A stretch of DNA of 46,490 nucleotides. Source: a virus. The DNA lies in the IMG/VR virus record IMGVR_UViG_3300036466_000208, positions 1 to 46,490 of that record. One strand, written 5' to 3'. The translations under genes were made by a program, and so were the position numbers. The notes under the pieces are model-generated. The model did not search any database. It saw only the letters and a list, made by a program, of their open reading frames with translations, and was not told the DNA's origin. Of this stretch, positions 637 through 46,490 are shown in pieces (position 1 is the first letter of the stretch; each line of letters begins with the position of its first letter).

Positions 637-652
637 GTCTATTATAGTAGAC
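637..652. promoter_or_regulatory. 16-bp near-palindrome, copy upstream of fibre A
   Basis: The minus strand reads GTCTACTATAATAGAC. It is one of 17 copies of GTCTAYTATARTAGAC and begins inside the TAG stop codon of fibre B. It is a candidate phage promoter or operator for the fibre A gene. Confidence 0.7.
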
Positions 653-7243: not shown

Positions 7244-7256
7244 AGTGTTTCTCCTA

Positions 7257-7272
7257 GTCTACTATAATAGAC
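7257..7272. promoter_or_regulatory. 16-bp near-palindrome upstream of the gp16-like gene
   Basis: The minus strand reads GTCTATTATAGTAGAC and runs directly into TAGGAGAAACACT and the ATG. It is the T,G variant at positions 6 and 11. Confidence 0.7.
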
Positions 7273-7277
7273 TGCCG

Positions 7278-21662: not shown

Positions 21663-22694
21663 TTAGTACTCCTTGCTTTCGTCAAGCTTCTCGCGCTTCT
21701 TTCCCTTGCCCTTCTTGGACTTCTCCTTATCCCCCTTGCTCTTTTCAGAGAGCTTGGCAAAGTCTGGCTTGTCCTTACGGATTTTGGCTACTACCTTCTC
21801 AGCCTCAGAGCCGGGGAAGTTAACAGCCTCAAGCACATAGTCCTTCACCTGAGTGATGGGATTCAGCTCAAGCATGGCTTCCTTGGTCATGCAATCCAAG
21901 TTAGGCACAGCATGGCCCTTCTTGGTGGCGGCAGGGATTGCCTTGGCCTCAGCAAGACCGGGAGACTTAATGTCACCACGTAGATACATATAGCCCTTGT
22001 CTGAGGTGAACACCTCACCCATAGCTGTATTGTCCATGAGGTCAGCAGGAGTCTTGCACTCAAGGGCATTCATCATCTTAGTCCATTGCGCTTTCTTGTT
22101 GCCCTTAAGCGCCTTGAACACATGATAGACAATCGCTGGCTCTTTGGAGGTCAGCTTAATCTTGCCCTTATTCTTGTCCACCTTGTACGGCCAGCACTCT
22201 GCCACCACGGCGATACCAGAAGTGGCCTTCTCTGCCTTCTTGCCGTCAAAGACAAAGTGAACCTGTCCGACTGAGATAACAGACCGGAAACGAATCAGGA
22301 CAGGAGTTGTACCCTGTGGCAGTTTGAAGAAGTCAGCACCTGAGCTTTCGGTTTCATCCCAGCTCTTGTCTGCCTTCTTGTTCGTTGCCTTATCTGAGGA
22401 CTCCTTAGCGGCGCTCTCAGCGGCTTTGTCCTTAGCCTTGCCCTTTGCCTTCTTGTCAGCTTTGGACTGCTCAGGGGCTTGCTCAGGAGCCTTCTTGCCC
22501 TTCTTCTTCTTCTGCTCCTCGGCTGGAGCTGCCTTCTTGTCTTTCTTCGCCATCTTATAGCCCTTTAGTTTGATGATTAAATGATAAGGATTGAGGCACT
22601 CACCCTTGCACTTACAGGCTCGTGCCACCTTGTACCCTTTGGGAATCAATGAGAACTCCCTGAGGTATGCTTGCTCTAGTGCGTGTCTTTCCAT
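21663..22694 (-). CDS. Candidate ssDNA-binding protein (gp2.5 slot) with HNH-like N-terminal extension
   Basis: 343 codons from the ATG at 22694. An inner ATG at 22553 (MAKKDKKAAPAEEQ, 296 residues) is also plausible and may be the real start. The first 47 residues hold ACKCKGECLNPYHLI, reminiscent of the short Cys/Asn-Pro-x-His pieces in HNH proteins. A Lys/Ala/Glu-rich linker follows (residues about 48-110). The core (FKLPQGTTPVLIRFRSVISV, VGQVHFVFDGKK, VAECWPYKV) is beta-rich, as in OB folds. The C-terminus is Lys/Glu/Ser-rich. Position next to DNA polymerase and exonuclease supports an ssDNA-binding role, but the acidic Phe-ended tail of T7 gp2.5 is absent, so this is inference. Confidence 0.6.
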   Translation of the reverse strand: MERHALEQAYLREFSLIPKGYKVARACKCKGECLNPYHLIIKLKGYKMAKKDKKAAPAEEQKKKKGKKAPEQAPEQSKADKKAKGKAKDKAAESAAKESSDKATNKKADKSWDETESSGADFFKLPQGTTPVLIRFRSVISVGQVHFVFDGKKAEKATSGIAVVAECWPYKVDKNKGKIKLTSKEPAIVYHVFKALKGNKKAQWTKMMNALECKTPADLMDNTAMGEVFTSDKGYMYLRGDIKSPGLAEAKAIPAATKKGHAVPNLDCMTKEAMLELNPITQVKDYVLEAVNFPGSEAEKVVAKIRKDKPDFAKLSEKSKGDKEKSKKGKGKKREKLDESKEY

Positions 22695-25333
22695 GAGTGG
22701 CCTATTTTGTATTCTCCGGCAAGAGGTGTCCTGATACCAAGATACTTCCCGGCCTTCTCAAAGGCTTTGCAAAGCAAGTCGCCAGCTTTATGGAACTTGC
22801 GCTCTACAGTAACTTTCTTCTTGCCCTCTTTTACAATAGAGGGAGCAGACCAATACCCGCCAGATTCATGGTACATGATTCTCTTTTCTTCCTCCTTCCA
22901 AGCTTCCTTGCCAGTGGGTATCTTGTATCTGATACTTTCAACCTCTGGCAGCTTAACCTCAAGCTGGTACTCGTCATGGATTGAGGCAACTATCCTAGCC
23001 TCTACTCCCACTTCCTCGAACATATCCAGAGCTAGGTATAAGCCCCACTTCATACACAGAGAGCCAGTCATTTGCAGCAGGACGTTGAGAGCTGTGTGCT
23101 CCTTGACCTTGCCACCAGACTTTCTGACTCTGCCCCAGCGACCATCTACCGCCTTCATGTAGCCTCTCTCTCTGGCTGTCTCTTGGACACCAGCGATAAG
23201 GTCTTTCAGTAGTGGAAGCTCGTTCAGGAACCGCTGTACAACCTCCTCCATCTTGCGCTTGCTGATACCACAAACGAAAGCTAGGTTAGCTATGCCTGAG
23301 CCATAGAGGAACGCATAGATAAACGTCTTAGCCATGTCCCTGACAGGGAGGCCAGCTTTCTCTTGGTTGTGAGTATGTATGTCACCGTGAAGAATGATAG
23401 CCTCATAGTCAGGGTCATTCATAAAGTGCGAGAGCATACGCAGCTCAAGCCCGGCACCATCACATCCAAGGACAGCCCACCCATCGGAAGCAATAAACAA
23501 CCTACGCATTTCTTTGCCGTACAATCCACGAGAAGGAATGTTGACAACATACTTGTGTCTCATCCTAAAGGTGTTTGTACCAATGGCAAAGGCGGCAGCA
23601 GGAACGCGATAATCGCCATCATCATCCCATTGCTGCTCGTCCCAGAAATCCAAGCCGTACTGTTCCATTAACTCTTGGAACTCAAGTCCGCTTGCTGTGT
23701 CTCTGGCACGAGGGATGAGACCTCGACACTGACGCTTGCCATTCTGTTGTTTAGGCCATTGCCCATGCTCCCGGTAGTAGTCCATATCCTTCTTGTTGAG
23801 AATCTGGCCTCTCCTGTGGGTCACAACATAGTATTCCAGTAACATGGTAGCCCACTCAGGCGGCTTGTGTTTGCTCTTGGCCCAAGCGTCCATAGAATCT
23901 TGGTCGAGCTTGCCTGCCCACGGGTACTCAATGTCGCCGTGTTTATCTACATACTTCTCCTCATTCTCTGTGAGATTAACTCCACGCCAGCCATACTGAT
24001 AGAGAGTCTGTCTGACAACATCACGATTACCAAGCGAGACCTGCTCCCACACGATAGGAGTATAAGGCCCTCTGACAACTGGGTGCTTGTGGTCGTCCGG
24101 CGAACCCACAGCCTCAGGGTAGTCCTTGGTTGTTGTGGCGCTATAGTTGCCGCTCTTAGTCACCCAGCCCCAGTTAGTAGCACGAGAGCCACAGTGAGTA
24201 AGAACGTCTTTGGTGTACTTGACTTTGTTGGTGCGAGGATGGAATAACTTAGGGTCATGCCCTTCCTTCTTCCATTTCTTCTTGAGCTTCTTATTGACCT
24301 TCTCAGCCTCGGCCGCGCTCATCTTCACCACATAGGAGAGCTTCTGCTCCCCTGTTATCGAGTACTTAGGGTCAATCCCATACCTTGCCCTTGCCTTCTC
24401 TACCTCTGCTTCTTTAAGTGGCTTCATCTTAATGCGCTGAGGTATGTGAGGAAGGCAAGCGTCAAGGATTCGCTGAGTGTGTTCGTCCAGAGTCTTGACC
24501 AACTTCCAAGCATAAGGAACATCAATCCTGAAACCACGATACTCTTGAGCTGCCATCTCCCAATAGAGGGTAAGCTCCATCCGGTAGGCATCTGCAATAG
24601 TCAGCCCTGTTACAGGGTGAGGCGCATCCTGCTCTTGCCACTCCAACCACAGATAGTCGAAGAAGTCCTCTCCTATCGCTACGTCTTCCCAGCATCGGTG
24701 AATCATGTGGTCAGTGAGGTGAGTCCAGTCCTCGTTCTCTGGCTTATAGCGGCCAATACGTATGCCGTGTGCCTCGATAGAGTGAGCACCCATGTTACCC
24801 TTACCCATTGCATAAGCTTCACGAGGAGGCTTACGCTCAGGGTTAAGCAGCTGAGACATTACGAGGGTATCCATTACCCTCATTGGGTATTGTTTCTTTC
24901 GCTTCTTCCCGCCTTTAGGTTTCTGCTTATGCGTGATAGTAACCTTACCGGGCCAAGTCTTCCTGAGTGCATGGCCGTCATAGCCTACCCAGTTCTGAGC
25001 AATCAAAACATCAAGCTCGTTTATGAACTTGACACCATCAAGCAAGAATCCGTCTTGCTCTCCTTCCCACTCATCCAGCCATACCCTGTCTTTAGGGTCT
25101 CGCTTTTCATATGGGTCGAAGAAAACAAAGGTCTGTCCTGTCTCTTTGTCCTTAAGCACAATAACGTGCTGGTCTTGCACTTGCTCAGGACGCAAGACAG
25201 GGACTAGCCCTCTTGCCTCAGTATCCAGAGTACACACCCGGCCAGTTCCAGAAGGCCGCTCAGCAGAGTTGCCGAACTTAGAGGGGTAGTAAGGGTACTC
25301 CTTAATCTTCCCCTTCTTCTTTTTCTTAGCCAT
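22676..25333 (-). CDS. DNA polymerase, family A with 3'-5' exonuclease (gp5-like)
   Basis: 885 residues, longer than T7 gp5 (704) and nearer SP6-type enzymes. The proofreading domain has CTLDTEARGL (Exo I), AQNWVGYDGHAL (Exo II) and HRCWEDVAIGEDFF (Exo III-like). The polymerase domain has VLGCDGAGLELRML (motif A), RDMAKTFIYAFLYGSG (motif B, finger helix) and IVASIHDEYQLEV (motif C). Lys-rich runs are present at the N-terminus (MAKKKKKGKIKE) and between Exo motifs (KPKGGKKRKKQ). ATG follows TGGAGAG directly after the palindrome at 25346. The 3' end overlaps the next start by 19 bases. Confidence 0.97.
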   Translation of the reverse strand: MAKKKKKGKIKEYPYYPSKFGNSAERPSGTGRVCTLDTEARGLVPVLRPEQVQDQHVIVLKDKETGQTFVFFDPYEKRDPKDRVWLDEWEGEQDGFLLDGVKFINELDVLIAQNWVGYDGHALRKTWPGKVTITHKQKPKGGKKRKKQYPMRVMDTLVMSQLLNPERKPPREAYAMGKGNMGAHSIEAHGIRIGRYKPENEDWTHLTDHMIHRCWEDVAIGEDFFDYLWLEWQEQDAPHPVTGLTIADAYRMELTLYWEMAAQEYRGFRIDVPYAWKLVKTLDEHTQRILDACLPHIPQRIKMKPLKEAEVEKARARYGIDPKYSITGEQKLSYVVKMSAAEAEKVNKKLKKKWKKEGHDPKLFHPRTNKVKYTKDVLTHCGSRATNWGWVTKSGNYSATTTKDYPEAVGSPDDHKHPVVRGPYTPIVWEQVSLGNRDVVRQTLYQYGWRGVNLTENEEKYVDKHGDIEYPWAGKLDQDSMDAWAKSKHKPPEWATMLLEYYVVTHRRGQILNKKDMDYYREHGQWPKQQNGKRQCRGLIPRARDTASGLEFQELMEQYGLDFWDEQQWDDDGDYRVPAAAFAIGTNTFRMRHKYVVNIPSRGLYGKEMRRLFIASDGWAVLGCDGAGLELRMLSHFMNDPDYEAIILHGDIHTHNQEKAGLPVRDMAKTFIYAFLYGSGIANLAFVCGISKRKMEEVVQRFLNELPLLKDLIAGVQETARERGYMKAVDGRWGRVRKSGGKVKEHTALNVLLQMTGSLCMKWGLYLALDMFEEVGVEARIVASIHDEYQLEVKLPEVESIRYKIPTGKEAWKEEEKRIMYHESGGYWSAPSIVKEGKKKVTVERKFHKAGDLLCKAFEKAGKYLGIRTPLAGEYKIGHSWKDTH

Positions 25334-26062: not shown

Positions 26063-26088
26063 TCTTTCCCTGTACGGCGTTTTAATTA
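26063..26088 (-). promoter_or_regulatory. T3/T7-like promoter candidate before the 228-residue gene
   Basis: The minus strand reads AATTAAAACGCCGTACAGGG, then AAAGA. The layout equals the T3 promoter (AATTAA, ten bases, AGGGA), with the transcript predicted to start at GGG. It lies about 23 bases upstream of the ATG. Confidence 0.6.
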
Positions 26089-27601: not shown

Positions 27602-29566
27602 TCAGTACTCCTTTGCTTTGTTTGCTTTATCTTTCTTCTTCTTACCCTTCTTACCTTTCTTGTCCTTAGGACTTGGGGCAGAGTAAGCAGAAGGCTCTAA
27701 GAGGCGACCCGTCTTAGGATTGCCCTTAATGGTTACTACCTCACCAGTGTTCTGGCCTGTCAGTCTGTCCTTGACACAGCGCAGATAGGTTATGAGCTTT
27801 TCCTCCCTGTCTCCGTTGGTGTTCCTCTCTACACCAATCATAAAGGTTGACCAGAAGGCGATAGACTGAGAGCCACGGAAGTCAGACTGTCTGACCTGTC
27901 CTCCGTCCTCAAACGGCTTGCGGCTTTCATCCGGCTTAGATAGGTGGGAGAGAAGGAAGATAGAGACAGGCTCTGTCTGCATGTAAGTGCCAAATTGCTT
28001 CATTGATTCATCAATGGCCTTCACGCTACCTTCTTTGCCTTCGTGGCTGATAGTGGTCAGGTTATCAATGAAGATATATTTACAACCATAGCTCTTAAGT
28101 TCTTCCATCCGGGCTATGATTGTGCTGATTCTGGTATCGCCCTTACAGTCTGCGATATATACCAGCTTCTTAGCCCGGAGAGTTTTGAGCGCCTGTATCA
28201 TCTGCTCATAGGTATAGTCCCTGCCCTCGTCCCATTTGGCATGTCCCTTGGGGTGGTTGTTAGGCGGGAGGTGCAGCTTCTTGTTTACCCACTTACCAGC
28301 CAGCACCTTGAGGGTAAACTCTGGAGGTTCCTCCATGAAGATGACACCAACCTTTTCGTGGTGATGGTCTACGATATGCTGGATAACTTCCTTGGCTACC
28401 TCAGTCTTACCTACACCAGAGCCACCACCTATCGTATACATATTGTTAGGACGTATACCGAAAGTCTGCTCAGTGACACCCGGCCAAGGCCAAGAGATAC
28501 CCATAGTCACAGGAGTGATTGCTTTCTCCCACAGGTCGGCATCGTCTGCCGTCTTAATGGAACTGCGCTCAACCTCTGCCGCCTTCCACCAAGCATCTAC
28601 AAACTCCTCCGCTCTGTCTTCAACCAAGCATTGGTTAGGGTCTTTCATCCCGTCAGGCATCTGAATTTGCAAGGCCCTTGGGCCAAGTAACTGAGCCACT
28701 TTCTGAGTGAGTAGCCTACCTACCTCATCATCATCGAAGCACAGCTTAACCTGCTTAAACTTCTTAATGTCCTTGAGGTTGGCGAGTATCTCCTCTAACC
28801 CTGCCTCACCTTTCTGGACTGACCAAACATGGAACAGCATACCCTCATACTGAGTGTTCTTCCTTGACTCACACAGCATATCCTGAGCAGCCATAGCGTC
28901 ACACTGTCCACCTGTGATAGTGAGGACGTCTTTCCTTGCACCTGACTTGCTCACTGCCTTCATGGTGTTCTGACCAAAGAGCTTGTTCTTTGCTCCCCAA
29001 GTCTTACCCAGCTTCCCGGTGCGGAAGTCCTTTGGAAGGTTGCGGCAGATAGCACCTGTTAGGTTCATATCCTCATCATAGACAGGGTAATAATGGCGAA
29101 CCACCTTCCCTTTGTTGTTGAGGCCAACCCTGACATTATAGAGCTTAGCGGTAGGTCCAGTGATAGCACGACTCACAAGACATTTAATCTTGAGGGTATT
29201 GAAGTGCTCGACCTCCCTGTCCCACTGCTTCTCTAAAGCTCGTTGCTCATCATCATCCATGACCTCATATCTGTCCCGCTCCCTCATACCACTGAGGGCC
29301 AGTGCCCTGACTGATGGGTCTTTCAACTTGCCGGACTTCTCCAACTCCTCGAACTCCTCCACGGAGTATTTGATAGTGCCATCTATGCCGTGCTCGAAGA
29401 CAGGGTTTTTCTCTCCTTTCTTCTTATAGTAGCGTTGCCCATCCTTGTGGAAATGCGCTCTGGTGCATAGCTGGCCTCCATCGGAGAACACAATAAGATG
29501 GTCGGATGTTTTATCATGTCCCATTTCCCGGCAGGCAGGGCAGGCCATATTTCTGACGATGCCCAT
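27602..29566 (-). CDS. Primase-helicase (T7 gp4-like)
   Basis: 654 residues; T7 gp4 has 566. An N-terminal Zn-type region (MACPACREMGHDK ... CTRAHFH) precedes the TOPRIM-like primase core (TITGGQCDAMAAQ, KLCFDDDEVGR). The helicase half has Walker A GGGSGVGKTEVAKE, GVIFMEEPPEF, a YIFIDNLTTISHEGK Walker B region and an arginine-rich end. The last 25 residues are almost all Lys/Gly/Asp (SPKDKKGKKGKKKKDKANK) instead of the T7 acidic tail that binds DNA polymerase. The enzyme unwinds DNA and primes the lagging strand. ATG is preceded by GAAGGG. Confidence 0.95.
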   Translation of the reverse strand: MGIVRNMACPACREMGHDKTSDHLIVFSDGGQLCTRAHFHKDGQRYYKKKGEKNPVFEHGIDGTIKYSVEEFEELEKSGKLKDPSVRALALSGMRERDRYEVMDDDEQRALEKQWDREVEHFNTLKIKCLVSRAITGPTAKLYNVRVGLNNKGKVVRHYYPVYDEDMNLTGAICRNLPKDFRTGKLGKTWGAKNKLFGQNTMKAVSKSGARKDVLTITGGQCDAMAAQDMLCESRKNTQYEGMLFHVWSVQKGEAGLEEILANLKDIKKFKQVKLCFDDDEVGRLLTQKVAQLLGPRALQIQMPDGMKDPNQCLVEDRAEEFVDAWWKAAEVERSSIKTADDADLWEKAITPVTMGISWPWPGVTEQTFGIRPNNMYTIGGGSGVGKTEVAKEVIQHIVDHHHEKVGVIFMEEPPEFTLKVLAGKWVNKKLHLPPNNHPKGHAKWDEGRDYTYEQMIQALKTLRAKKLVYIADCKGDTRISTIIARMEELKSYGCKYIFIDNLTTISHEGKEGSVKAIDESMKQFGTYMQTEPVSIFLLSHLSKPDESRKPFEDGGQVRQSDFRGSQSIAFWSTFMIGVERNTNGDREEKLITYLRCVKDRLTGQNTGEVVTIKGNPKTGRLLEPSAYSAPSPKDKKGKKGKKKKDKANKAKEY

Positions 29567-29569
29567 TGC

Positions 29570-29812
29570 TTACCCTTCTGCTGAATCAAACACCTTGTTA
29601 GCCATTGCGTTAATCTCGCTTGGCGTTTCTGTCACATGCCAGTTGTAGCGGCGACCTAGGAACACTACCCGAAGATAGGTAAAGGAATCTGTAGCGTCAC
29701 GGTTGGCCCGGAGGATAGCTGATACAGGAATCACGTTCTCCTCCGGCTTCTCCTCACCGGGTATCATCCGATTAACTACGATTGTCTGCGCTTGTTGCTT
29801 CTGTTCTGTCAT
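29570..29812 (-). CDS. Hypothetical 80-residue protein
   Basis: The ATG at 29812 (MTEQKQQAQTIVVNRMIPGE) is chosen because AGGAG lies ten bases upstream; a longer in-frame version would overlap PPK2. The second half (LRANRDATDSFTYLRVVFLG) looks like a small beta-rich domain. The stop is three bases from the helicase start. Its position between PPK2 and helicase suggests a middle-gene role, otherwise unknown. Confidence 0.68.
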   Translation of the reverse strand: MTEQKQQAQTIVVNRMIPGEEKPEENVIPVSAILRANRDATDSFTYLRVVFLGRRYNWHVTETPSEINAMANKVFDSAEG

Positions 29813-29828
29813 TGCTTTGTTACTCCTA

Positions 29829-30572
29829 TCAGTTAATCCGCAAATCTTCAAAAGATTGCTGTCGCTCTGCAACCTCAATAGGAGGTAGCCGCCTTGGCTC
29901 ATAATCTTTGCGGTTATATGGGACGATGCTAAGGATATGCTTGATACAATCTAAGCGGCCCCGCTTCTTGTTGTTGGTGTCAATCACATACCAAGGGCAA
30001 TCCTCAGTGTGCGTTGTCTCAAACATCCTTTCCTTTGCTGCCGTGTACTCATGCCAGCGATAGCGGCTCTCCAAGTCCATAGGGGAGAGTTTCCAGTGCT
30101 TAGTAGGGTCGTTAAGCCTTTCGTGAAATCGTTGCTCCTGCGTTCGCTGAGTGATACTGAGCCAATACTTGATAAGGATGATTCCTTGCTTGACCAGAGA
30201 CCTCTCAAACTCTGGGGTAAATTCGAGGAACTCGGTTACTTGCTCCTCAGTGGCAAAACCCATTACAGACTCTACCCCGGCCCTGTTGTACCAACTCCTG
30301 TCGAACAGGACTATCTCGCCCTCCTTGGGCAAGTCAGGAATCCACCGCTCAAAATACCACTGCTTAAGCTCATCCTCTGTAGGCTTACTCTTGGAGACTA
30401 CTCTCACCCAGTTAGGGTTTAGCTTCTCAGTGATACGACTAATAACACCGCCTTTGCCTGCTGCATCCCGGCCCTCAAAGATAATCAGCACCTTGAGCTT
30501 ATTATCCTTAACGTGCCTCTGCATCTGTACTAACTCAGCTTGTAACTTCTTTAGCTCTGTCTTGTACTTCAT
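29829..30572 (-). CDS. Polyphosphate kinase 2 (PPK2) family protein
   Basis: 247 residues, the length of a one-domain PPK2. Visible motifs are Walker A FEGRDAAGKGG (residues 32-42), the DRSWYNRAGVE Walker B region (91-101), a basic lid with KHWKLSPMDLESRYRWHEYTA (about 158-178), and a closing WYVIDTNNKKRGRLDCIKHI. All are typical PPK2 signatures and no key residue seems lost. Members transfer phosphate between polyphosphate and nucleoside mono- or diphosphates; the class and direction cannot be told from sequence alone. It lies just before primase-helicase, where T7 has its nucleotide kinase gene 1.7. An AAGGGA site precedes the ATG. A role in boosting the NTP/dNTP supply from host polyphosphate is my inference. 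Confidence 0.93.
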   Translation of the reverse strand: MKYKTELKKLQAELVQMQRHVKDNKLKVLIIFEGRDAAGKGGVISRITEKLNPNWVRVVSKSKPTEDELKQWYFERWIPDLPKEGEIVLFDRSWYNRAGVESVMGFATEEQVTEFLEFTPEFERSLVKQGIILIKYWLSITQRTQEQRFHERLNDPTKHWKLSPMDLESRYRWHEYTAAKERMFETTHTEDCPWYVIDTNNKKRGRLDCIKHILSIVPYNRKDYEPRRLPPIEVAERQQSFEDLRIN

Positions 30573-30626: not shown

Positions 30627-30872
30627 TCACCGTTGCTTTGCTTGCTTGTGTTTACCCGCATTGGCTGAACTCTTGCCTTTACTGCGTCCAGCCACGGCGC
30701 TGTTTTGCTCACCTTTCAGCTCCTCCAATGTCATTTGCTCAAGGAGCCAGTCTCCGGCGCAAATAATATCATCCTTACTTATGCCGCTCTCTGCCAGCTG
30801 AGCTGCCAGCTTCTTGCCCCGCTTGAGGTATTTCTTGCGAAACTTCTTTATACTCTCCTGTGTTGTGGTCAT
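30627..30872 (-). CDS. Hypothetical basic 81-residue protein
   Basis: Starts MTTTQESIKKFRKKYLKRGK after GAGGG and ends in a Lys/Ser/Ala-rich tail (GKSSANAGKHKQAKQR). The middle has SGISKDDIICAGDWLLEQMT. It overlaps the 60-residue frame upstream by 98 bases. A small nucleic-acid-binding protein is possible; nothing specific is recognised. Confidence 0.55.
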   Translation of the reverse strand: MTTTQESIKKFRKKYLKRGKKLAAQLAESGISKDDIICAGDWLLEQMTLEELKGEQNSAVAGRSKGKSSANAGKHKQAKQR

Positions 30873-30965: not shown

Positions 30966-30988
30966 CTCCTCTGTATGGCGTTATTATT
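30966..30988 (-). promoter_or_regulatory. T7-type promoter candidate before the 60-residue frame
   Basis: The minus strand reads AATAATAACGCCATACAGAG, followed by GAGTT. It shares the AACGCCRTACAGRG core with the elements at 26063 and 31517 and overlaps the ribosome site of the following frame. Confidence 0.55.
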
Positions 30989-31487
30989 GGAACGCTGACA
31001 CAAACAACGTGATAGCGAAGGCCACTGTGATGATGCCAGAGATTACCCTCATTGAGTTACGCTCCCGGCGCATCTTAGAGGCAAGCTCCAAGTGCTTCTT
31101 GCTCCGTTCCTTCACAGCATTCAACTCCCGGCGCAGCTCGTGCTTACAGTCGAGAGTCTTTTTCAGATTGTGGATTGCCTCATTTCTTGTCATAAGGTCA
31201 TAGCCAGTGACACCGACAGGGCCAGACGCCTCTCTGTGCCCTTTAACCTCTCTGACAAGATAGAGGGAATTAAACAAACGAACCTCACCGCCTTTTACCT
31301 GAGACACCAGATTGTCATAGGCTACACCTGAGTCATGGTCTACCTTCATGGCACCAACACGCAGAGAGCAGATAACGCCCTCAGGGCCAACTGGTGTATC
31401 CTGTTCTGAGCAAGCAATGTATCGCTCCAAGCCCATTTGCTTTAACTTGTCTGCTTGCGTGTCTGTTAGTTCAATGTAAGCTGTCAT
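30984..31487 (-). CDS. Hypothetical C-tail-anchored protein
   Basis: 167 residues from the ATG at 31487 (MTAYIELTDTQADKLKQMGL), chosen for its GAGG site; a longer in-frame version would start inside the promoter candidate. The first 110 residues are alpha/beta, the next 40 a basic coiled coil (NLKKTLDCKHELRRELNAVK), and the last 20 a hydrophobic anchor (VISGIITVAFAITLFVSAF). It is therefore probably held in the inner membrane facing the cytoplasm. No family recognised. It is the first gene after RNA polymerase and its terminator. Confidence 0.75.
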   Translation of the reverse strand: MTAYIELTDTQADKLKQMGLERYIACSEQDTPVGPEGVICSLRVGAMKVDHDSGVAYDNLVSQVKGGEVRLFNSLYLVREVKGHREASGPVGVTGYDLMTRNEAIHNLKKTLDCKHELRRELNAVKERSKKHLELASKMRRERNSMRVISGIITVAFAITLFVSAFQ

Positions 31488-31514
31488 TTGATTTGCCTCG
31501 TTAACCGGGAGCGA

Positions 31515-31541
31515 TTCTCCCCTGTATGGCGTTTTAATTAG
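31515..31541 (-). promoter_or_regulatory. T3/T7-like promoter candidate after the RNA polymerase terminator
   Basis: The minus strand reads AATTAAAACGCCATACAGGG, then GAGAA. It lies directly downstream of the hairpin at 31551-31582 and about 30 bases before the next gene, the classical place for a promoter restarting transcription. Confidence 0.62.
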
Positions 31542-31550
31542 CCTAGAATA

Positions 31551-31582
31551 CAAAAAGCCCCTCCGGCCGAAGCGAGAGGGGC
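31551..31582 (-). terminator. Intrinsic terminator after the RNA polymerase gene
   Basis: On the minus strand a 7-bp GC stem (GCCCCTC/GAGGGGC) with a twelve-base loop is followed by TTTTTG. It lies behind the RNA polymerase gene, comparable in position to the early terminator of T7. Confidence 0.88.
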
Positions 31583-31583
31583 A

Positions 31584-31599
31584 GTCTATTATAGTAGAC
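31584..31599. promoter_or_regulatory. 16-bp near-palindrome at the end of the RNA polymerase gene
   Basis: The minus strand reads GTCTACTATAATAGAC. It overlaps the TAG stop of the polymerase gene and is followed at once by the terminator hairpin, an arrangement that makes little sense for a simple promoter and fits an operator or RNA-processing role as well. Confidence 0.65.
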
Positions 31600-34247
31600 T
31601 AGGAGAAGATATATTTACTCTCATATACCTCCTTGAGGTCGAAGTCTCCCATCTTGGGTAGCTTGATTCCTAGGTCAGTCTCAAGGCGTTGCTCATTCTC
31701 ATGCAAGAAATTCTCAAGCCAGTTCTCCTGATACATTTGGGCGAACTGATAACGCAATGCTTTGTGTAGCTCTCCTGTCTGGCAGGCGTGAGTCCCGAAG
31801 TCATCGTGAATCATCCAGAAATCAGTTACCCCGGCGTCCCCTAAGTCGCACACAGTAAAGACAAGGTGAGAGCTGTCCATTGTGTGAATGAAGTCAGGAG
31901 CACTGCCGGACTTCATTTTTTCAGGGCATAGTTCATCGGTCTCCTCGAAGACACGGAAGTCAATACGCCCAAGCAACACAGTGTTAACCCGTCTGTCTCT
32001 GGTCTTGAATGCTTGCAGTTTCATCACAAACCCGGTTGGGGCTGTGAAGTACAAAGGACTGTTACGCAAAGCAACAGCGCGAGCCACCGCCCTTATAGCT
32101 TTCATGCCAGCACGAGCAGCCACCACGACTTCCCCTATTGATTCCCAGATAAGGGAAGACATATAACCCTCTGCCTCCCAGCGTCTATCGCCGAAGGTAT
32201 GGACTAGAACAGGCTCCCTTTCCTCTGCCTTTGCTGCCTTGTTCTCTTGCTTCTGTAGCTCATCAATGTAAGCGCCTACAGAGTCCCGGCAAGTCAACTG
32301 GCTTGAGCCATAGGGGAGAGTCATTACAGGCTTTTTAGTGAGGCCTCGGCTCAGTGGCATAGCCAGCCAAGCTTCCGCAAAGGCTCGCTTCTCCTGTGCT
32401 GTCTTCTTCTTCCCTGTAGGGTCTGGCTCCTCAATGGCAAAATTGCTGGCATCCTCTCTCAGCTTGCCAGTAACAACGTCCATCACATCCCCATAAATAT
32501 CCTGAGGCTTGTCCCTGTTACAGAGGTTAACCGACCTAGCCCCAACAGGGTCTCTAAGCAATGCGCTGTAATGCTGGATGCCAGAACAAGAGCCGTCTTG
32601 GTTACAGCTGATAAAGGTCTCAAAGGTGTCTGATGGTTCGCCGCTCTCTATGTGTTTCATGTAATCGGCATACTCGAAACACCAAGCTAGGAATTGCCAA
32701 GCCTTCTCACCTTTATCTGCCTTAACCCAGTCGTGACACTCTACAGGGTCGGAGGCAATACGCTTAACCATTTCTTTGAACTCTGGCTCCTGTGCATTGC
32801 TCATTCTCTCTGTGAAAGTGAGCTTGTCCCAGCCCCAGAGACCAGCGCCATGATTAATGAGCCAGAAGTGACCAAAGGTGCCAAGCGGCCTCCTGTTAGC
32901 GAAACGGAGCAATCCTTTTTGTATGTCATTACCTTGTGGGCTGAGTCCTGCTGCCCTTGGATAGAACCGCTGGCGAAAATCCAGAGAATAAACAAAGTAG
33001 AACTTATCAAACTCAGAGTATCGTTCTGCAATGTTTCTTGTTCTGCCCAAGTCTATAACAGAGCTTACCCGGCTACGCTCTGAATCGTGCCAGTGGCGCT
33101 TATCCCGCTTCCATGTGATGAATGCATCGAACTGCTCAGGCTTAAGGCTCTGCCTCAACTGCTCCCCGGTCAGCTCTTGGACTTCCTCACCAAGGGCCAA
33201 TAGGGGATTGATAGGCTCATGCGCCGCATCATAATCAGGAACACCAAGAGGCAGCCGCTTCTCGCATATCTCTTGCAAGACGTCTAGCACCTCTGTGTTA
33301 ACCTGCCATTCTGTGCGCTGCAAGAGGTTAACGGCCTTGTATGTCAAAGGCATCTGGGCTTGTGTCAGGGTCTTTACGTGCTCTCTGTCGAATGACTTAA
33401 CAAGAGGGTTACGAGCCGCCACCTTGGCAGTATGAAAGCCACCGATAAAGGGAGTACGCCAATCTCTTGGAGGGATTACACAAGGGGCCATCTCAGGGTG
33501 GAAGGCTTCTGTGTTATTCATAAATTCAGCGACCCAAGATGCATATTTGGCAGTTACGCCAAGCACCTTGGAGGAGCGCCGCAACTTGCCCCGGCTAATG
33601 TCCACCTCACCAATAAAGAATAGCTCCTCAAGCTCTCCGCTCTGGTCATCTTCCATAACGATAACAGAACAGGCCAATTTGATGAGCATGATACCAAACT
33701 TTATCTTGTCGTCGTGGGGCCATGCTTGCCATTTGTCGGATAGTTTGCGCTCGGCAGCTGCCCACACATTGCGCTTATGCTGATAGCTACGGGTAGCTGA
33801 CTTCTTGAGAGACTCCTCTATCTTGGCAAGATACCTCTTGGTTTTAGGGTCAGTGTTTTTGAGTTTGGAGAACCTTACTTGGTCTTCGATTTTCCCGGCT
33901 ATGTCGGCAGACAGATACTGCAAGCTGGTGCTGTCCCTGATTGCAATGGCATTAAGCATCTGCCGGATAGTGATGAACGCAGCTTCACTGGCTGGCAAGG
34001 TTCCCATGTATTGCAGAATCATTGAGGGCTTGCCTCTCTTGCCCTCATAGTGTTCTTGGAAAGAATTGATTGCCTCGGCCACTGGCTTGATGAAATGCTT
34101 TACTAGCTTTCTGTTCCAATCAGTGTTAGCGCCTTCGCCTTGGTTAATGGTGTCTTGGTTCCGCTTGTGCCAACGGTCAATACCGCCATCGTGCATCTGC
34201 TTCTCAAGCTCAAGCTGTTTTAGGTATAAAGGGCTATTTGGTCTCAC
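31599..34247 (-). CDS. Single-subunit DNA-directed RNA polymerase (T7 gp1-like)
   Basis: 882 residues from a GTG at 34247 (AGGAG eight bases upstream); T7 RNA polymerase has 883. A longer ATG frame from 34301 would run through the palindrome and is unlikely. Signatures: DFRQRFYPRAAGLSPQGND, catalytic QDGSCSGIQHYSALLRD (T7 D537), TKKPVMTLPYGSSQ (T7 K631/Y639) and FWMIHDDFGTHA (T7 D812). In the promoter specificity loop RRVNTVLLGRIDFRV keeps the Arg and Asn of T7 positions 746 and 748 but has Asp and Arg in place of R756 and Q758, so its promoter should differ from T7 near -9/-8. It transcribes middle and late genes. It is flanked by a terminator on each side. Confidence 0.97.
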   Translation of the reverse strand: MRPNSPLYLKQLELEKQMHDGGIDRWHKRNQDTINQGEGANTDWNRKLVKHFIKPVAEAINSFQEHYEGKRGKPSMILQYMGTLPASEAAFITIRQMLNAIAIRDSTSLQYLSADIAGKIEDQVRFSKLKNTDPKTKRYLAKIEESLKKSATRSYQHKRNVWAAAERKLSDKWQAWPHDDKIKFGIMLIKLACSVIVMEDDQSGELEELFFIGEVDISRGKLRRSSKVLGVTAKYASWVAEFMNNTEAFHPEMAPCVIPPRDWRTPFIGGFHTAKVAARNPLVKSFDREHVKTLTQAQMPLTYKAVNLLQRTEWQVNTEVLDVLQEICEKRLPLGVPDYDAAHEPINPLLALGEEVQELTGEQLRQSLKPEQFDAFITWKRDKRHWHDSERSRVSSVIDLGRTRNIAERYSEFDKFYFVYSLDFRQRFYPRAAGLSPQGNDIQKGLLRFANRRPLGTFGHFWLINHGAGLWGWDKLTFTERMSNAQEPEFKEMVKRIASDPVECHDWVKADKGEKAWQFLAWCFEYADYMKHIESGEPSDTFETFISCNQDGSCSGIQHYSALLRDPVGARSVNLCNRDKPQDIYGDVMDVVTGKLREDASNFAIEEPDPTGKKKTAQEKRAFAEAWLAMPLSRGLTKKPVMTLPYGSSQLTCRDSVGAYIDELQKQENKAAKAEEREPVLVHTFGDRRWEAEGYMSSLIWESIGEVVVAARAGMKAIRAVARAVALRNSPLYFTAPTGFVMKLQAFKTRDRRVNTVLLGRIDFRVFEETDELCPEKMKSGSAPDFIHTMDSSHLVFTVCDLGDAGVTDFWMIHDDFGTHACQTGELHKALRYQFAQMYQENWLENFLHENEQRLETDLGIKLPKMGDFDLKEVYESKYIFS

Positions 34248-34261
34248 TTGCTGGTCTCCTA

Positions 34262-34277
34262 GTCTATTATAGTAGAC
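34262..34277. promoter_or_regulatory. 16-bp near-palindrome before the RNA polymerase gene
   Basis: The minus strand reads GTCTACTATAATAGAC, then TAGGAG and the GTG start. If it is a phage promoter, it would make the polymerase autoactivating; if an operator, autoregulated. Confidence 0.7.
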
Positions 34278-34296
34278 TCTTGTTTCTAAGACTAAC

Positions 34297-34327
34297 GACA
34301 AAAGGCACCCTATCGGATGCCCTTTAG
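34297..34327 (-). terminator. Intrinsic terminator before the RNA polymerase gene
   Basis: The minus strand forms a 7-bp stem GGCATCC/GGGTGCC (one G-U pair) with a GATA loop, extended by AAAG/TTTT pairing, and ends in CCTTTTGT. It follows the stop of the 110-residue gene by nine bases. Confidence 0.85.
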
Positions 34328-37302: not shown

Positions 37303-37332
37303 TTTCTTCCCTGTACGGCGTTTTTAAATATA
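37303..37332 (-). promoter_or_regulatory. T3/T7-like promoter candidate
   Basis: The minus strand reads ATTTAAAAACGCCGTACAGG, then GAAGAA. It lies about 170 bases upstream of the 86-residue early gene. Confidence 0.55.
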
Positions 37333-37519: not shown

Positions 37520-37546
37520 TGCTTCTCTGTACGGCGTTTTAATCTG
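37520..37546 (-). promoter_or_regulatory. T3/T7-like promoter candidate after the kinase gene
   Basis: The minus strand reads AGATTAAAACGCCGTACAGA, then GAAGC. It begins about 32 bases after the kinase stop. Confidence 0.55.
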
Positions 37547-42161: not shown

Positions 42162-42174
42162 TACTATAATAGAC
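42159..42174. promoter_or_regulatory. 16-bp near-palindrome after the large terminase
   Basis: The minus strand reads GTCTATTATAGTAGAC. It begins in the TAG stop of the large terminase and runs straight into a CGCCCTATAGGG element. Confidence 0.68.
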
Positions 42175-44123
42175 TAACGCCAGCCTTTTACCTTGAACAT
42201 AGACCCCATTAGTCCACCTCCATGTGCTTCCTCTAGGGTTACATCCTCCCGGTGTTTACTTGGGTTCATCATCTTCTGTTGCCATTCCTTAAACTCAGCT
42301 TGTTCTCTCCGGGCCATCTCAATGGATTGGTCGAATTGAACTTCAAGAGTAATCTGGTAGATGGCACCTGACAGAGCATCCAGTCTGTCATCATGCACAA
42401 GACAGCCTTTGTCTCGTGTAATCATGGACAACTGGAACAGACCAGAGTAAGTCTTCTTGACCTCATCAGCATAGCGCTCTACAGAGGACAGGTCGCGCTT
42501 GATAACGTCAGGGTGGATGATGATTCGATGAGCAGACAGAAGGGGCTCTATCGTGTCGATAATCCTCAGCTCTTTCTGCCCTGTTGCCCAGTGCTCCTCC
42601 AGCTTGGCTTGGTGGTACTTCTGGAACAAAGGAGCAATCATTGCTTGGAAAGCACCATTGCCGTAGTTCTTCTCGAACCACACTTCCTTGATGTTGTGAC
42701 GCTTGGCAGCATTAACAAGCTCCATCATCTTGGCTTCTTCATACCCACCGGGAACACCTCCCCACTCGCGGATATAAATATTAGAACCAATCAGAGAGAT
42801 AATAGCATAGGCTGTCTCGTCACCGTTCTTACCACCGCCAGCAGGGTCGATATACATGAGCGACCTTTGGAACTTCCTTGTAGTGTAGGGAACGTCCATT
42901 GGCCCATAGAGTTTGTCAGTGGCTTGGTTGGAGAATATTGGATATTGCTTTAGCTGCCTTGCATCATTGCACCAGATGGGAGAGGACACAGCCTCTGTCT
43001 CACTGAACGGCATCACTATCAAGTTGTTCATCTTGAGTGGGTAACGCTCAGCATCTGCTAGTCTGGTGTTTAGCATATACTGCAACTGGAACTTGCTTGG
43101 CCCTTGAGAAATCTCTTTCTCTATGAGCAGCTCATCAGGGAACATCGTAGGAGTACAAGGGGCACCCTGTCTACCATCAATACCATGCCCTGTCTGCAAG
43201 CTTGTGTCAGCAAGTAGTTGTTCCTTGAGCATAGGAGCGAGATACTCGCCGTAAGACTCCAGCTGGTCTTTGTTGGGGTAACGAGCAGGCCATATACGAA
43301 CAGCGAAGCCACGACTAGGCAGGTTATTGTAGATGGACTCGAAGAACTGAGGAGTACCAAGATAAACAATATCACCTGACTGGCAGATAGACTCAAACTC
43401 CTTGGTCAGCTCTACCAGCAGCTCACGCATGAGGACTGTCCTTGAGTTCTTCATAGACTCAATGTCGTCTGCAATCAGCAAGTCTGCACGAGAACCCTGA
43501 GCGTTAGAGTCAACACCAAGACACTTTACGGAAGGTGCCTTCTCTGTCCCACGAAAGACCCAATGAATGTCATATGATTCCATTGAGCATCGGTCGCCGT
43601 TGAGCTTATCCGGCAGCAGTACCTGCAAGATTGTCAGTCCCTCAAGTATTTGGATAATCCATTTGGCAATCTCCCCGGCCAGCTTACCACCTGCTGAGAA
43701 GATAAGGACACGAGTTGTAGGGTCATGGATGATACGGAACACAGCATAGATAGCACAGAGAGTAGTCTTACCCAAGCCACGGTTAGCCTGAATCATTCTT
43801 AGCCTCTGACCTATACCTGTCTTGACTATCTCATAGTTCTGCTGCAAAGAGCCTTTTGGCTTCTTTTTCTTCTTGTTCTTCTTTTTCTTCTTCTTCTTTT
43901 TCTTGCCCAGACTAACAGCCTTCATTGCAAGGCCATTATGGAAAAGGTACTTACAAATATCCGCTTGGGTTTCTGTAAGGTCTGGGCCACCTTTAATAAG
44001 CTTATTGAGAGAGTAATTGGCAAAGTCCAAGAAACCCTCCTCCGTATAGGGGAAGGTCTCTTGTATGGCTACCAATTCCTCCCACATAGCTTTTTCTACA
44101 GACGGGTGTAGAACCTTAGCCAT
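42174..44123 (-). CDS. Terminase large subunit (T7 gp19-like)
   Basis: 649 residues, against 586 for T7 gp19. It has the packaging ATPase motifs RMIQANRGLGKTTLCAIYA (Walker A-like) and GSRADLLIADDIES (Walker B). The nuclease domain starts SLMYIDPAGGGKNGDETAYA, with further acidic residues in KGCLVHDDRLDAL. A run of sixteen residues that are Lys apart from one Asn (KKKKKKKKKNKKKKKP) sits near residues 75-90, just before the ATPase; I know of no such run in T7. The enzyme packages concatemeric DNA and cuts it to length. ATG follows TGGAGG right after a palindromic element. Confidence 0.95.
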   Translation of the reverse strand: MAKVLHPSVEKAMWEELVAIQETFPYTEEGFLDFANYSLNKLIKGGPDLTETQADICKYLFHNGLAMKAVSLGKKKKKKKKKNKKKKKPKGSLQQNYEIVKTGIGQRLRMIQANRGLGKTTLCAIYAVFRIIHDPTTRVLIFSAGGKLAGEIAKWIIQILEGLTILQVLLPDKLNGDRCSMESYDIHWVFRGTEKAPSVKCLGVDSNAQGSRADLLIADDIESMKNSRTVLMRELLVELTKEFESICQSGDIVYLGTPQFFESIYNNLPSRGFAVRIWPARYPNKDQLESYGEYLAPMLKEQLLADTSLQTGHGIDGRQGAPCTPTMFPDELLIEKEISQGPSKFQLQYMLNTRLADAERYPLKMNNLIVMPFSETEAVSSPIWCNDARQLKQYPIFSNQATDKLYGPMDVPYTTRKFQRSLMYIDPAGGGKNGDETAYAIISLIGSNIYIREWGGVPGGYEEAKMMELVNAAKRHNIKEVWFEKNYGNGAFQAMIAPLFQKYHQAKLEEHWATGQKELRIIDTIEPLLSAHRIIIHPDVIKRDLSSVERYADEVKKTYSGLFQLSMITRDKGCLVHDDRLDALSGAIYQITLEVQFDQSIEMARREQAEFKEWQQKMMNPSKHREDVTLEEAHGGGLMGSMFKVKGWR

Positions 44124-44135
44124 GTGTTACCTCCA

Positions 44136-44151
44136 GTCTACTATAATAGAC
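44136..44151. promoter_or_regulatory. 16-bp near-palindrome before the large terminase
   Basis: The minus strand reads GTCTATTATAGTAGAC, begins in the TAG stop of the small terminase gene and is followed by TGGAGG. Confidence 0.7.
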
Positions 44152-44531
44152 TATTGCTGCTTTGCGACAGGAGCGCAGATACGACCACGCTGTTTCCTGC
44201 GAATCTCCTCCAGCTCCCCAAGTGTGCCCTTAATGTCTTCTGTCTCAACATCAGTAGGCATGACCTTGTTGTATCCAGTCCACCTAGCGGCAGACTCCAG
44301 AAGCTTAATATCCAGCTCAAAGGTTGGGTCTTCCTCAAGCTCCTCATCACTGAGCTTCTTCTTCCCTCCCTTGGCCTTCCGCTTCTTATACTCCTCTAAG
44401 CTTTCTTTGGCTCGGCCGAGTTGGTGTTGCAGCTTGAGCTTGTAGCCTTGGTTGACAAGGTTGTGAACTACGCCAACATCATCAGCATGAGCTGCTGTAC
44501 CACCGTTTAATTTCTTCTTATCTTTAGCCAT
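44151..44531 (-). CDS. Terminase small subunit (T7 gp18-like)
   Basis: 126 residues starting MAKDKKKLNGGTAAHADDVG after AAGGAG, between fibre A and the large terminase as in T7. Basic helical N-terminal half with a Lys-rich run (EEYKKRKAKGGKKKLSDEE), acidic middle, and an Arg-rich end (LEEIRRKQRGR). T7 gp18 has 89 residues; the longer form here comes from the Lys-rich insert. It would recognise concatemer ends and load the large subunit. The assignment is mostly by position and character. Confidence 0.75.
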   Translation of the reverse strand: MAKDKKKLNGGTAAHADDVGVVHNLVNQGYKLKLQHQLGRAKESLEEYKKRKAKGGKKKLSDEELEEDPTFELDIKLLESAARWTGYNKVMPTDVETEDIKGTLGELEEIRRKQRGRICAPVAKQQ

Positions 44532-44542
44532 GCTGTTACTCC

Positions 44543-46490
44543 TTATCTGGCAATATACTTGATACCAATAATCTTATGTAAGACTCCGTTCTCTCTCACT
44601 ATCTGGAAATTCTTCTTATAGGTGTCTGTCATTCTCCAATAGAAGAAAGTCTCAGTAGACGCATGAAGCAGCCAACTTCTAGATGCAGCAGGAACAGCCT
44701 TAGCATACATTTCATCTAACTGCTTCTTAGTGAGTATATTAGATGAGTACTGATTCCTAGAATCATCACTAGCCAGGGTCATGATAGCGTCGAAGTTGCT
44801 CCAAGGCTGAGCAAGTGTGTAGATAGTTGTCCCAGAGTACGCTACCTCTCGGTTAAAGAGAGTGGTGTGTTCCTCATAGACCCTATGACTATGGCTTGCT
44901 GGAGTGAACGTTGTTGGCTTGCTGCTAACTTCACTCCATGATGGCCATCTGGTAGCTGTTGCCGGTTTGTTGGGTATCGCGTTCCAGTCGGACGGTCCAG
45001 CAGGTCCTGTGTCACCTTTAGGTCCCTGAGGCCCTGTAGCACCTGTAGCGCCCTTATCCCCTTTAGGTCCGGGCAAACCTTGAGGGCCTTGAGCACCTGT
45101 AGCCCCGGTTGGTCCTCTGGCACCTACAGGACCCTGCGGCCCTGTGTCGCCCTTAGGACCAGAAGGACCAGTAGCCCCATTTAATCCGGGGTCCCCTTTA
45201 TCCCCCTTAGGTCCCGTTGGCCCTGTCTGACCTGCTGGACCTTGCAAACCCTGAGGTCCTCTTGGGCCAGTCGAACCTACAGGACCGGGTACGCCTCGAA
45301 CCCCTTGAGGTCCTTGAGGCCCTATGTCCCTAACCCAAGCAGACCAGCTTCCCGTATAACAAGCCCTAGCGTACCTGACGCCAGTGCTATATACACTGTA
45401 CTCTTGAATACCATCAGGCGGTGTAGCGCCTCCGGCAGCTCTGTAGTACCTCAAAGTGCCTGCTGATTGTACTGGATAATTTCTGTCTGGAAGCGCTGCG
45501 GCGTTAGCAATCTGAAAGTAATAACCATAAACAGATAGATTATTCAGGTTAGCTGAGCCTAATGCTATAGCCGTTTGAGGAGTCTCTCCCGGCTTAGCAA
45601 CACCAGCAGGACCCTGTGGCCCGGTATCGCCTTTGTCACCTTTAGGACCCTGAGGGCCCGTAGCACCCGTAGCACCAGTGGCACCTCTGGCCCCTGTATC
45701 ACCTTTATCACCCTTAGGACCTTGTACGCCCTGAATACCTTGAATACCTCTATCCCCTTGTGGTCCTTTTGGTCCCTCTGGCCCTATGGGGCCCTGCGCC
45801 CCTGTGGCACCAGTATCACCTTTATCTCCTTTTGGTCCGGGGACCGTGGAGTCTTGGCCGGGGTCTCCTTTATCCCCTTTAGGACCTGTAGGCCCCTGAG
45901 GACCTGTAGCTCCTGTATCTCCTTTGTCTCCCTGAGGTCCGGTAGCTCCGGTCTCCCCTTTGGGACCCTGTGGTCCTTGAGGACCCTGAGGGCCCTTTGG
46001 GTCTCCTACGTTTACGAACCAACCAATCCCAGCAGAAGTGATGGTCCAGATAATCAAATCACCAGCGGCAACAACAACATCCTTGGCACCTACCGTCACA
46101 GTGCCTGCATCTTCCATGTAGTAAGACCAAGAGGCGTTGAGGGACGATGGGTCAAGCTGGTTAGCCTCAGCCACTGTTACCCTATCCTTAACCTCGATGC
46201 CCGGCCCTGCTGGCCCCTGAGGTCCTTGAGGCCCTATAGGCCCTTGAGGCCCCTGAGGTCCCTCATCCCCACGCACAAGGGAATCATCCCAGAATTTGTT
46301 ATCTGGGTTAGATGGGTCATAGACGTTAACGAACAGACGCCCTAAGGTCAGGTTGTAAAAGATGGAATCGATAGGATGGTCGTTGGGGCTAGGCTTGTTG
46401 TTGTCCTCAAAACCACCAAGCCAGAGAGAGCGTAAGAAAGCAAGATGCTCTCCTGCCTGTACCTCACTTGTGTTTGCATTAGCAGCAAAA
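44543..46490 (-). CDS. Collagen-repeat tail fibre/adhesin A, main part (cut by window edge)
   Basis: Continues, in frame, the gene that starts at 597 on the other side. Upstream of about 46276 the sequence repeats the N-terminal region; then come Gly-X-Y blocks interrupted by two globular inserts, one near 46190-46010 ([20 protein letters not shown]) and one near 45590-45330 ([20 protein letters not shown]). The second resembles the small repeated domain found in many phage fibres ([29 protein letters not shown]). The C-terminal 140 residues ([20 protein letters not shown]) should be the receptor-binding tip. SD and start are only in the other copy. Confidence 0.82.
46211..46490. repeat. 280-bp near-identical direct repeat, right copy
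   Basis: Matches positions 1-280 with nine substitutions and no gaps. See the left copy for the positions. Together they indicate a circular map of about 46,210 bp or terminally overlapping alleles. Confidence 0.9.

Follow-up and report, generated by a model that had tools for sequence, protein, structure and literature searches.

A complete gene for a class I polyphosphate kinase 2 (PPK2) lies between the RNA polymerase and primase-helicase genes of a T7-like phage genome, an IMG/VR entry of 46,490 bp (hereafter the window). It is a real, well identified gene of a known sort of viral auxiliary metabolic gene (AMG), in an unusual carrier. The reading that we favour, and hold to be reasonably probable from the sequence, is that it encodes a functional class I enzyme, acquired from a bacterium long ago, that would pass phosphate from polyphosphate (polyP) to nucleoside diphosphates (NDPs) in an SP6/Colwellvirinae-like replication block. 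Coordinates of the features discussed are collected in Table 1.

Table 1. Positions of PPK2 and other features in the window
Feature	Position	Strand	Evidence or remark
PolA-type DNA polymerase	22676..25333	-	profile; 46% identity to Colwellvirinae-type phages
Primase-helicase (T7 gp4-type)	27602..29566	-	downstream of PPK2, same block; 45% identity to Vectrevirus
80-aa protein, next cistron	29570..29812	-	probably begins at 29812, preceded by TAGGAG; listed ORF 29570-29902
Class I PPK2, 247 aa	29829..30572	-	profiles, AlphaFold model, Foldseek, residue alignment
81-aa ORF directly upstream of PPK2	30627..30872	-	no function assigned
Upstream ORF	30984..31553	-	weak phrog_18918 match; start approximate
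Terminator-like hairpin, 3' of RNA polymerase gene	31557..31573	-
18-bp near-palindrome copy	31583..31600	-	candidate phage promoter heading PPK2/primase block
Single-subunit phage RNA polymerase	31599..34301	-	profile; 42% identity to ECBP5
T7-type large terminase	42174..44123	-	49% identity to SP6

Identity and active site of the phage PPK2

The PPK2 reading frame starts with ATG behind a Shine–Dalgarno-like AAAAGGG, has no internal stops and encodes a single domain. Its product matches the Pfam PPK2 family (PF03976) over residues 2-223 at a level far beyond chance (E 2.1e-92, 309.3 bits, curated cut-off 22.3) and passes the NCBIfam equivalog model TIGR03707 (PPK2_P_aer; 336.6 bits, cut-off 301.8), the matches to the remaining NCBIfam PPK2 models lying below their own cut-offs. 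The earlier note on this DNA had proposed a complete PPK2 gene of one-domain length with intact motifs, and this was borne out: the 247-aa protein contains GRDAAGKGG (Walker A), DRSWYNRAG and, as its lid block, RFHERLNDPTKHWKLSPMD. The note had named thymidylate kinase as an example of a competing identity, which we rejected: the best non-PPK2 profile, dTMP kinase, scores 16.4 bits against a cut-off of 83.25, and the 50 best Foldseek matches are all PPK2, class I first. The sole PHROG match is a weak one to a thymidylate kinase model (17.6 bits). Just 33 residues precede Walker A in the phage protein, and many bacterial relatives carry 25-110 extra residues when read as the longest ORF; the short form is taken as genuine because only about five more codons are open upstream (a 252-codon frame).

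The residue that follows Walker B marks the class of a PPK2 (Asn for class I, Gly for class II, Glu for class III; PMC8776046), and in the window protein, with DRSWYN, it is N96, the class I signature. With seven distant PPK2 rows as outgroup, the protein groups with class I and is split from the outgroup with 100/100 support. The residues named for the Francisella tularensis enzyme (FtPPK2) in PMC4748334 were used as the active-site list. Ten of these 11 active-site or polyP residues are identical in the phage protein (D62, K66, D117, R118, R174, R178, K184, K228, K229 and R232 of FtPPK2, corresponding to D36, K40, D91, R92, R148, R152, K158, K202, K203 and R206) and the eleventh, H76, is replaced by K50. 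Walker A, Walker B (DRSxY) and the lid arginines and lysine are thus kept (D36, K40, D91, R92, R148, R152 and K158), and the alignment gave no sign of the loss of catalytic residues that the earlier note had set against its own reading. At three positions where 95% or more of 141 class I rows agree, the protein has a different residue (A60S, L61K and Y77W).

An AlphaFold model (input 13 window/locus sequences; mean pLDDT 87) has the PPK2 fold, with the Francisella PPK2 structures 5LL0/5LLB as best Foldseek matches (TM 0.86-0.87) and 3CZQ superimposing at 1.2 A rmsd. The solved structures closest by sequence are likewise class I enzymes, from Francisella and Sinorhizobium. The phage protein shares with F. 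tularensis PPK2 (PDB 4YEG/5LL0) the fold (TM 0.86), 53% identity over the Foldseek-aligned part and mapped catalytic residues that are all kept or conservatively changed; it differs from this cellular enzyme in its shorter N-terminus (Walker A Gly at 34 rather than 60), in K50 for H76, and in S60, K61 and W77. It is 50% identical to Sinorhizobium meliloti SMc02148 (class I, PDB 3CZQ/6DZG), with the same class I Asn, but lacks the N-terminal extension of that protein, in which the match begins at chain residue 61.

The carrier phage and the locus around PPK2

That the carrier is a T7-type phage, as first read from the sequence, is upheld by the content and order of its genes. The genome encodes a single-subunit RNA polymerase (RNAP), T7-type terminase, portal (head-tail adaptor), primase-helicase, PolA-type polymerase, exonuclease and internal virion proteins, and the presence and order of its RNAP, T7-type terminase and morphogenesis genes place it in the Autographivirales (T7 supergroup). 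Its nearest relatives are only 42-49% identical in terminase, RNAP, DNA polymerase and primase, and judged by these identities the phage seems to branch deeply, close to the SP6-like and Colwellvirinae groups. The contig ends (1-280 and 46211-46490) match in register at 97% (271/280), and because of this 280-nt overlap the record is probably complete, circularly assembled and about 46.2 kb long; the ends suggest that the circular assembly was cut within tail-fibre sequence with collagen repeats. Two genes for collagen-like (Gly-X-Y) tail fibres (652-3255 and 44543-46276, minus strand) lie near the contig ends and would be adjacent if the genome were circularised.

PPK2 is part of an operon-like run on a common coding strand (minus), between RNAP and primase-helicase. 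Downstream of RNAP come the 18-bp near-palindrome, the hairpin, the ORFs 30984-31553 and 30627-30872, PPK2, the 80-aa ORF and the primase-helicase. The 74-nt overlap of PPK2 with the next ORF in its listed form is probably not real, because that ORF most likely starts at the later position behind its TAGGAG. Codon usage, GC (48%) and GC3 of PPK2 match those of the other phage genes. As the contig is metagenomic, and as some 'phage' PPK2 matches in the databases are host DNA (H9, with ubiE and recC flanks, is described below), an assembly chimera or mis-binned host DNA was considered, but with phage genes on both sides of PPK2, the one-strand run, even GC and the overlapping contig ends, such an artefact is exceedingly improbable.

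The 18-mer AGTCTAYTATARTAGACT occurs in 18 copies in the genome (0.05 expected), mostly immediately upstream of genes and in several cases directly before the ribosome-binding site (for example 636-653, 7256-7273, 31583-31600 and 44135-44152). Its two variable positions are paired as T..G or C..A in most copies. The copies are like phage RNAP promoters in number and placement, and TATAR/ACTATA at the core is reminiscent of T7-type promoters, yet the element is palindromic; it is a candidate for either a phage promoter or a processing site. In the former case the phage polymerase could transcribe PPK2 and the primase-helicase together. A second repeat, AAAACGCCRTACAGGGRA, is present in five copies (0.03 expected; 26066-26083, 30967-30984, 31518-31535, 37307-37324 and 37523-37540, minus strand), of which that at 30967-30984 lies immediately before a ribosome-binding site.

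PPK2 in other viruses

Virus-encoded ppk1 and ppk2 have been reported from reservoir sediments (PMC13188868, which also cites a 2025 Water Res. paper on virus-encoded polyphosphate kinases in activated sludge), and ppk2 is listed among the AMGs of lytic viruses (PMC9636769). Single-sequence scans of IMG/VR with the PPK2 protein, RNAP and primase gave zero matches, and alignment queries were required. A relative is encoded by 321 IMG/VR stretches, the best identity to the window protein being 59% among the 80 listed; some of them, such as L038 and L062 below, clearly belong to phages. Contigs with PPK2 near one end (e.g. L030, L033 and L034) may represent host flanks and were not counted as cases of PPK2 carried by a virus. 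Of 50,697 annotated phage records 15 give a match; at least one of these is host DNA and several are unverified scaffolds. The Acinetobacter phage MD-2021a record CAKLQH020000005.1 (L297, H9) was rejected as a phage PPK2, since the match is flanked by bacterial genes (ubiE, recC; polyP:AMP phosphotransferase) and this part of the record is therefore probably host chromosome.

PPK2 was found in none of the 50 T7-like records searched and in none of the fetched T7-like loci, and a T7-type RNAP profile that finds the RNAP of the window and of ECBP5 found none in 50 PPK2-bearing viral records or in two more. The arrangement was found in one genome only, and sister phages with PPK2 may have escaped detection. 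The description of the gene as an uncommon AMG in the earlier note is therefore apt for T7-like phages (0/50) but not for viruses at large, given the 321 IMG/VR stretches and the published cases (PMC13188868). What appears to be new is the carrier, a T7-like phage, viral PPK2 itself having been reported already.

The window PPK2 is like other virus-encoded ppk1/ppk2 AMGs in lying on a viral contig, and unlike other viral PPK2 records in the company of a T7-type RNAP (0/50 tested) and in sequence (at most 59% identity among the matches listed). Two unrelated phage contigs (L038 and L062) carry a short-form PPK2 of 255-258 aa after a phage DNA polymerase in a replication region, so the pairing of PPK2 with replication genes recurs. 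In both the PPK2 lies behind the polymerase gene (L038:8040-10690, L062:214-4224), with an overlap of a few bases in L038. PPK2s of large phages (L045, L056-L087) often have about 150 extra N-terminal residues, which in the one tested (L045) have zero Pfam match, and some viral PPK2s lie in ORFs of more than 1000 aa (L047-L052).

Origin of the gene

In three maximum-likelihood trees the window PPK2 is a lone branch within class I, with 0.74-0.85 changes per site. Its neighbours vary with sampling (a Sphingomonadaceae clade in two trees, a Chloroflexota/Accumulibacter clade in one), and in AU tests two other placements were not rejected (p 0.106 and 0.297) and a third was borderline (0.054); for these reasons no donor lineage is named. 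Bacterial PPK2s are at most about 60% identical to the window protein, and a sister sought in the Gammaproteobacteria (the class of Wenzhouxiangella) was not found, 213 of 369 genomes giving a match with 60% as best identity. The source was probably a bacterium and the acquisition old. Long residence in phages fits the lone branch and phage-like codon usage, and a younger transfer followed by fast evolution is also conceivable.

These data bear on whether the gene is a recent or non-functional host-derived passenger without selected function. Its presence in one genome only, with T7-like relatives lacking it (0/50), would be expected of a passenger, but catalytic residues that are still intact after so long a branch, phage-like codon usage, tight gene spacing and the absence of host flanks make this distinctly unlikely.

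Possible function of the phage PPK2

The earlier note had placed PPK2 in the slot of the nucleotide kinase of T7. As to position this holds: like gp1.7, compared by map position and description, it is a phage nucleotide kinase gene between RNAP and primase-helicase. The comparison goes no further than the map. The T7 protein is described as distant from other nucleotide kinases and as needing no divalent cation (PMC7693777), and according to the same article, citing Tran 2012, it phosphorylates dTMP and dGMP. PPK2 by contrast is a P-loop enzyme that uses polyP, and in class I acts one step later, converting NDPs to NTPs (PMC8776046; PMC4748334). Because the substrates differ, we regard the shared slot as a coincidence of the map and not as functional replacement. 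Four close relatives were inspected across the stretch from RNAP to primase, and what lies there is either small genes lacking annotation or an HNH endonuclease, and no annotated nucleotide kinase. No NDP kinase or dNMP kinase was found among the other scanned ORFs of the genome. Judged by its sequence class, the phage PPK2 resembles an NDP kinase that draws on a different energy source more than it resembles a gp1.7 substitute, and presumably prefers NDPs to NMPs.

The most likely role is local, polyP-driven regeneration of ATP and GTP, and possibly of dNTPs. A phage that had acquired PPK2 from a bacterium long ago would have kept the gene in its replication block; during infection the enzyme would move phosphate from host polyP onto nucleoside diphosphates, and with ATP/GTP, possibly also dNTPs, so formed, replication and transcription by the phage RNA polymerase would be less limited by the host NTP supply. 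We infer catalysis, its direction in the cell, use of dNDPs and of host polyP, expression with the primase and a benefit to the phage. The substrates of FtPPK2 are limited to purine NDPs (PMC4748334), and it is therefore uncertain whether all four dNTPs would be supplied. It is possible, if doubtful, that a T7-like lineage has evolved a polyP-driven (d)NTP supply within its replication operon, with PPK2 retuned to broad dNDP use; K50, S60, K61, W77 and the loss of the N-terminal extension would then, taken together, be phage-specific changes, and phage DNA synthesis would be partly independent of the NTP-based energy supply of the host.

The same reaction consumes polyP, and the same sequence evidence would accommodate a PPK2 that mainly removes polyP or shifts the polyP-stress balance, freeing phosphate and Mg2+ and blunting the host stress response. 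We think this unlikely: the position beside replication genes better fits nucleotide supply, the titles and abstracts searched contain no report of polyP blocking phage, and PADLOC gave zero match to known defence-system models, for which reason a defence-system role for the locus was also rejected. Class I PPK2s can work in both directions, and for some polyP synthesis is the preferred one, the class I enzyme of Corynebacterium glutamicum and PA2428 being good polyP makers (PMC8776046), so the phage enzyme might instead run in reverse and make polyP from ATP/GTP, for example for phosphate storage or altered host regulation. Spending NTPs in this way would be costly while phage DNA and RNA are being made rapidly, and PA0141, a mould that other class I enzymes fit, favours NDP phosphorylation 75-fold (PMC8776046); polyP synthesis is accordingly rated very unlikely.

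Regeneration of nucleoside triphosphates from polyP thus stays the preferred role for the phage PPK2. No lytic phages are better understood than the T7-like ones, which have few surplus genes. With a PPK2 in its replication block, such a phage would offer a small, tractable genome in which to test directly whether stored polyphosphate powers viral DNA synthesis. The gene is also a further acquisition among the viral polyphosphate kinases, a growing group with relevance to phosphorus cycling.
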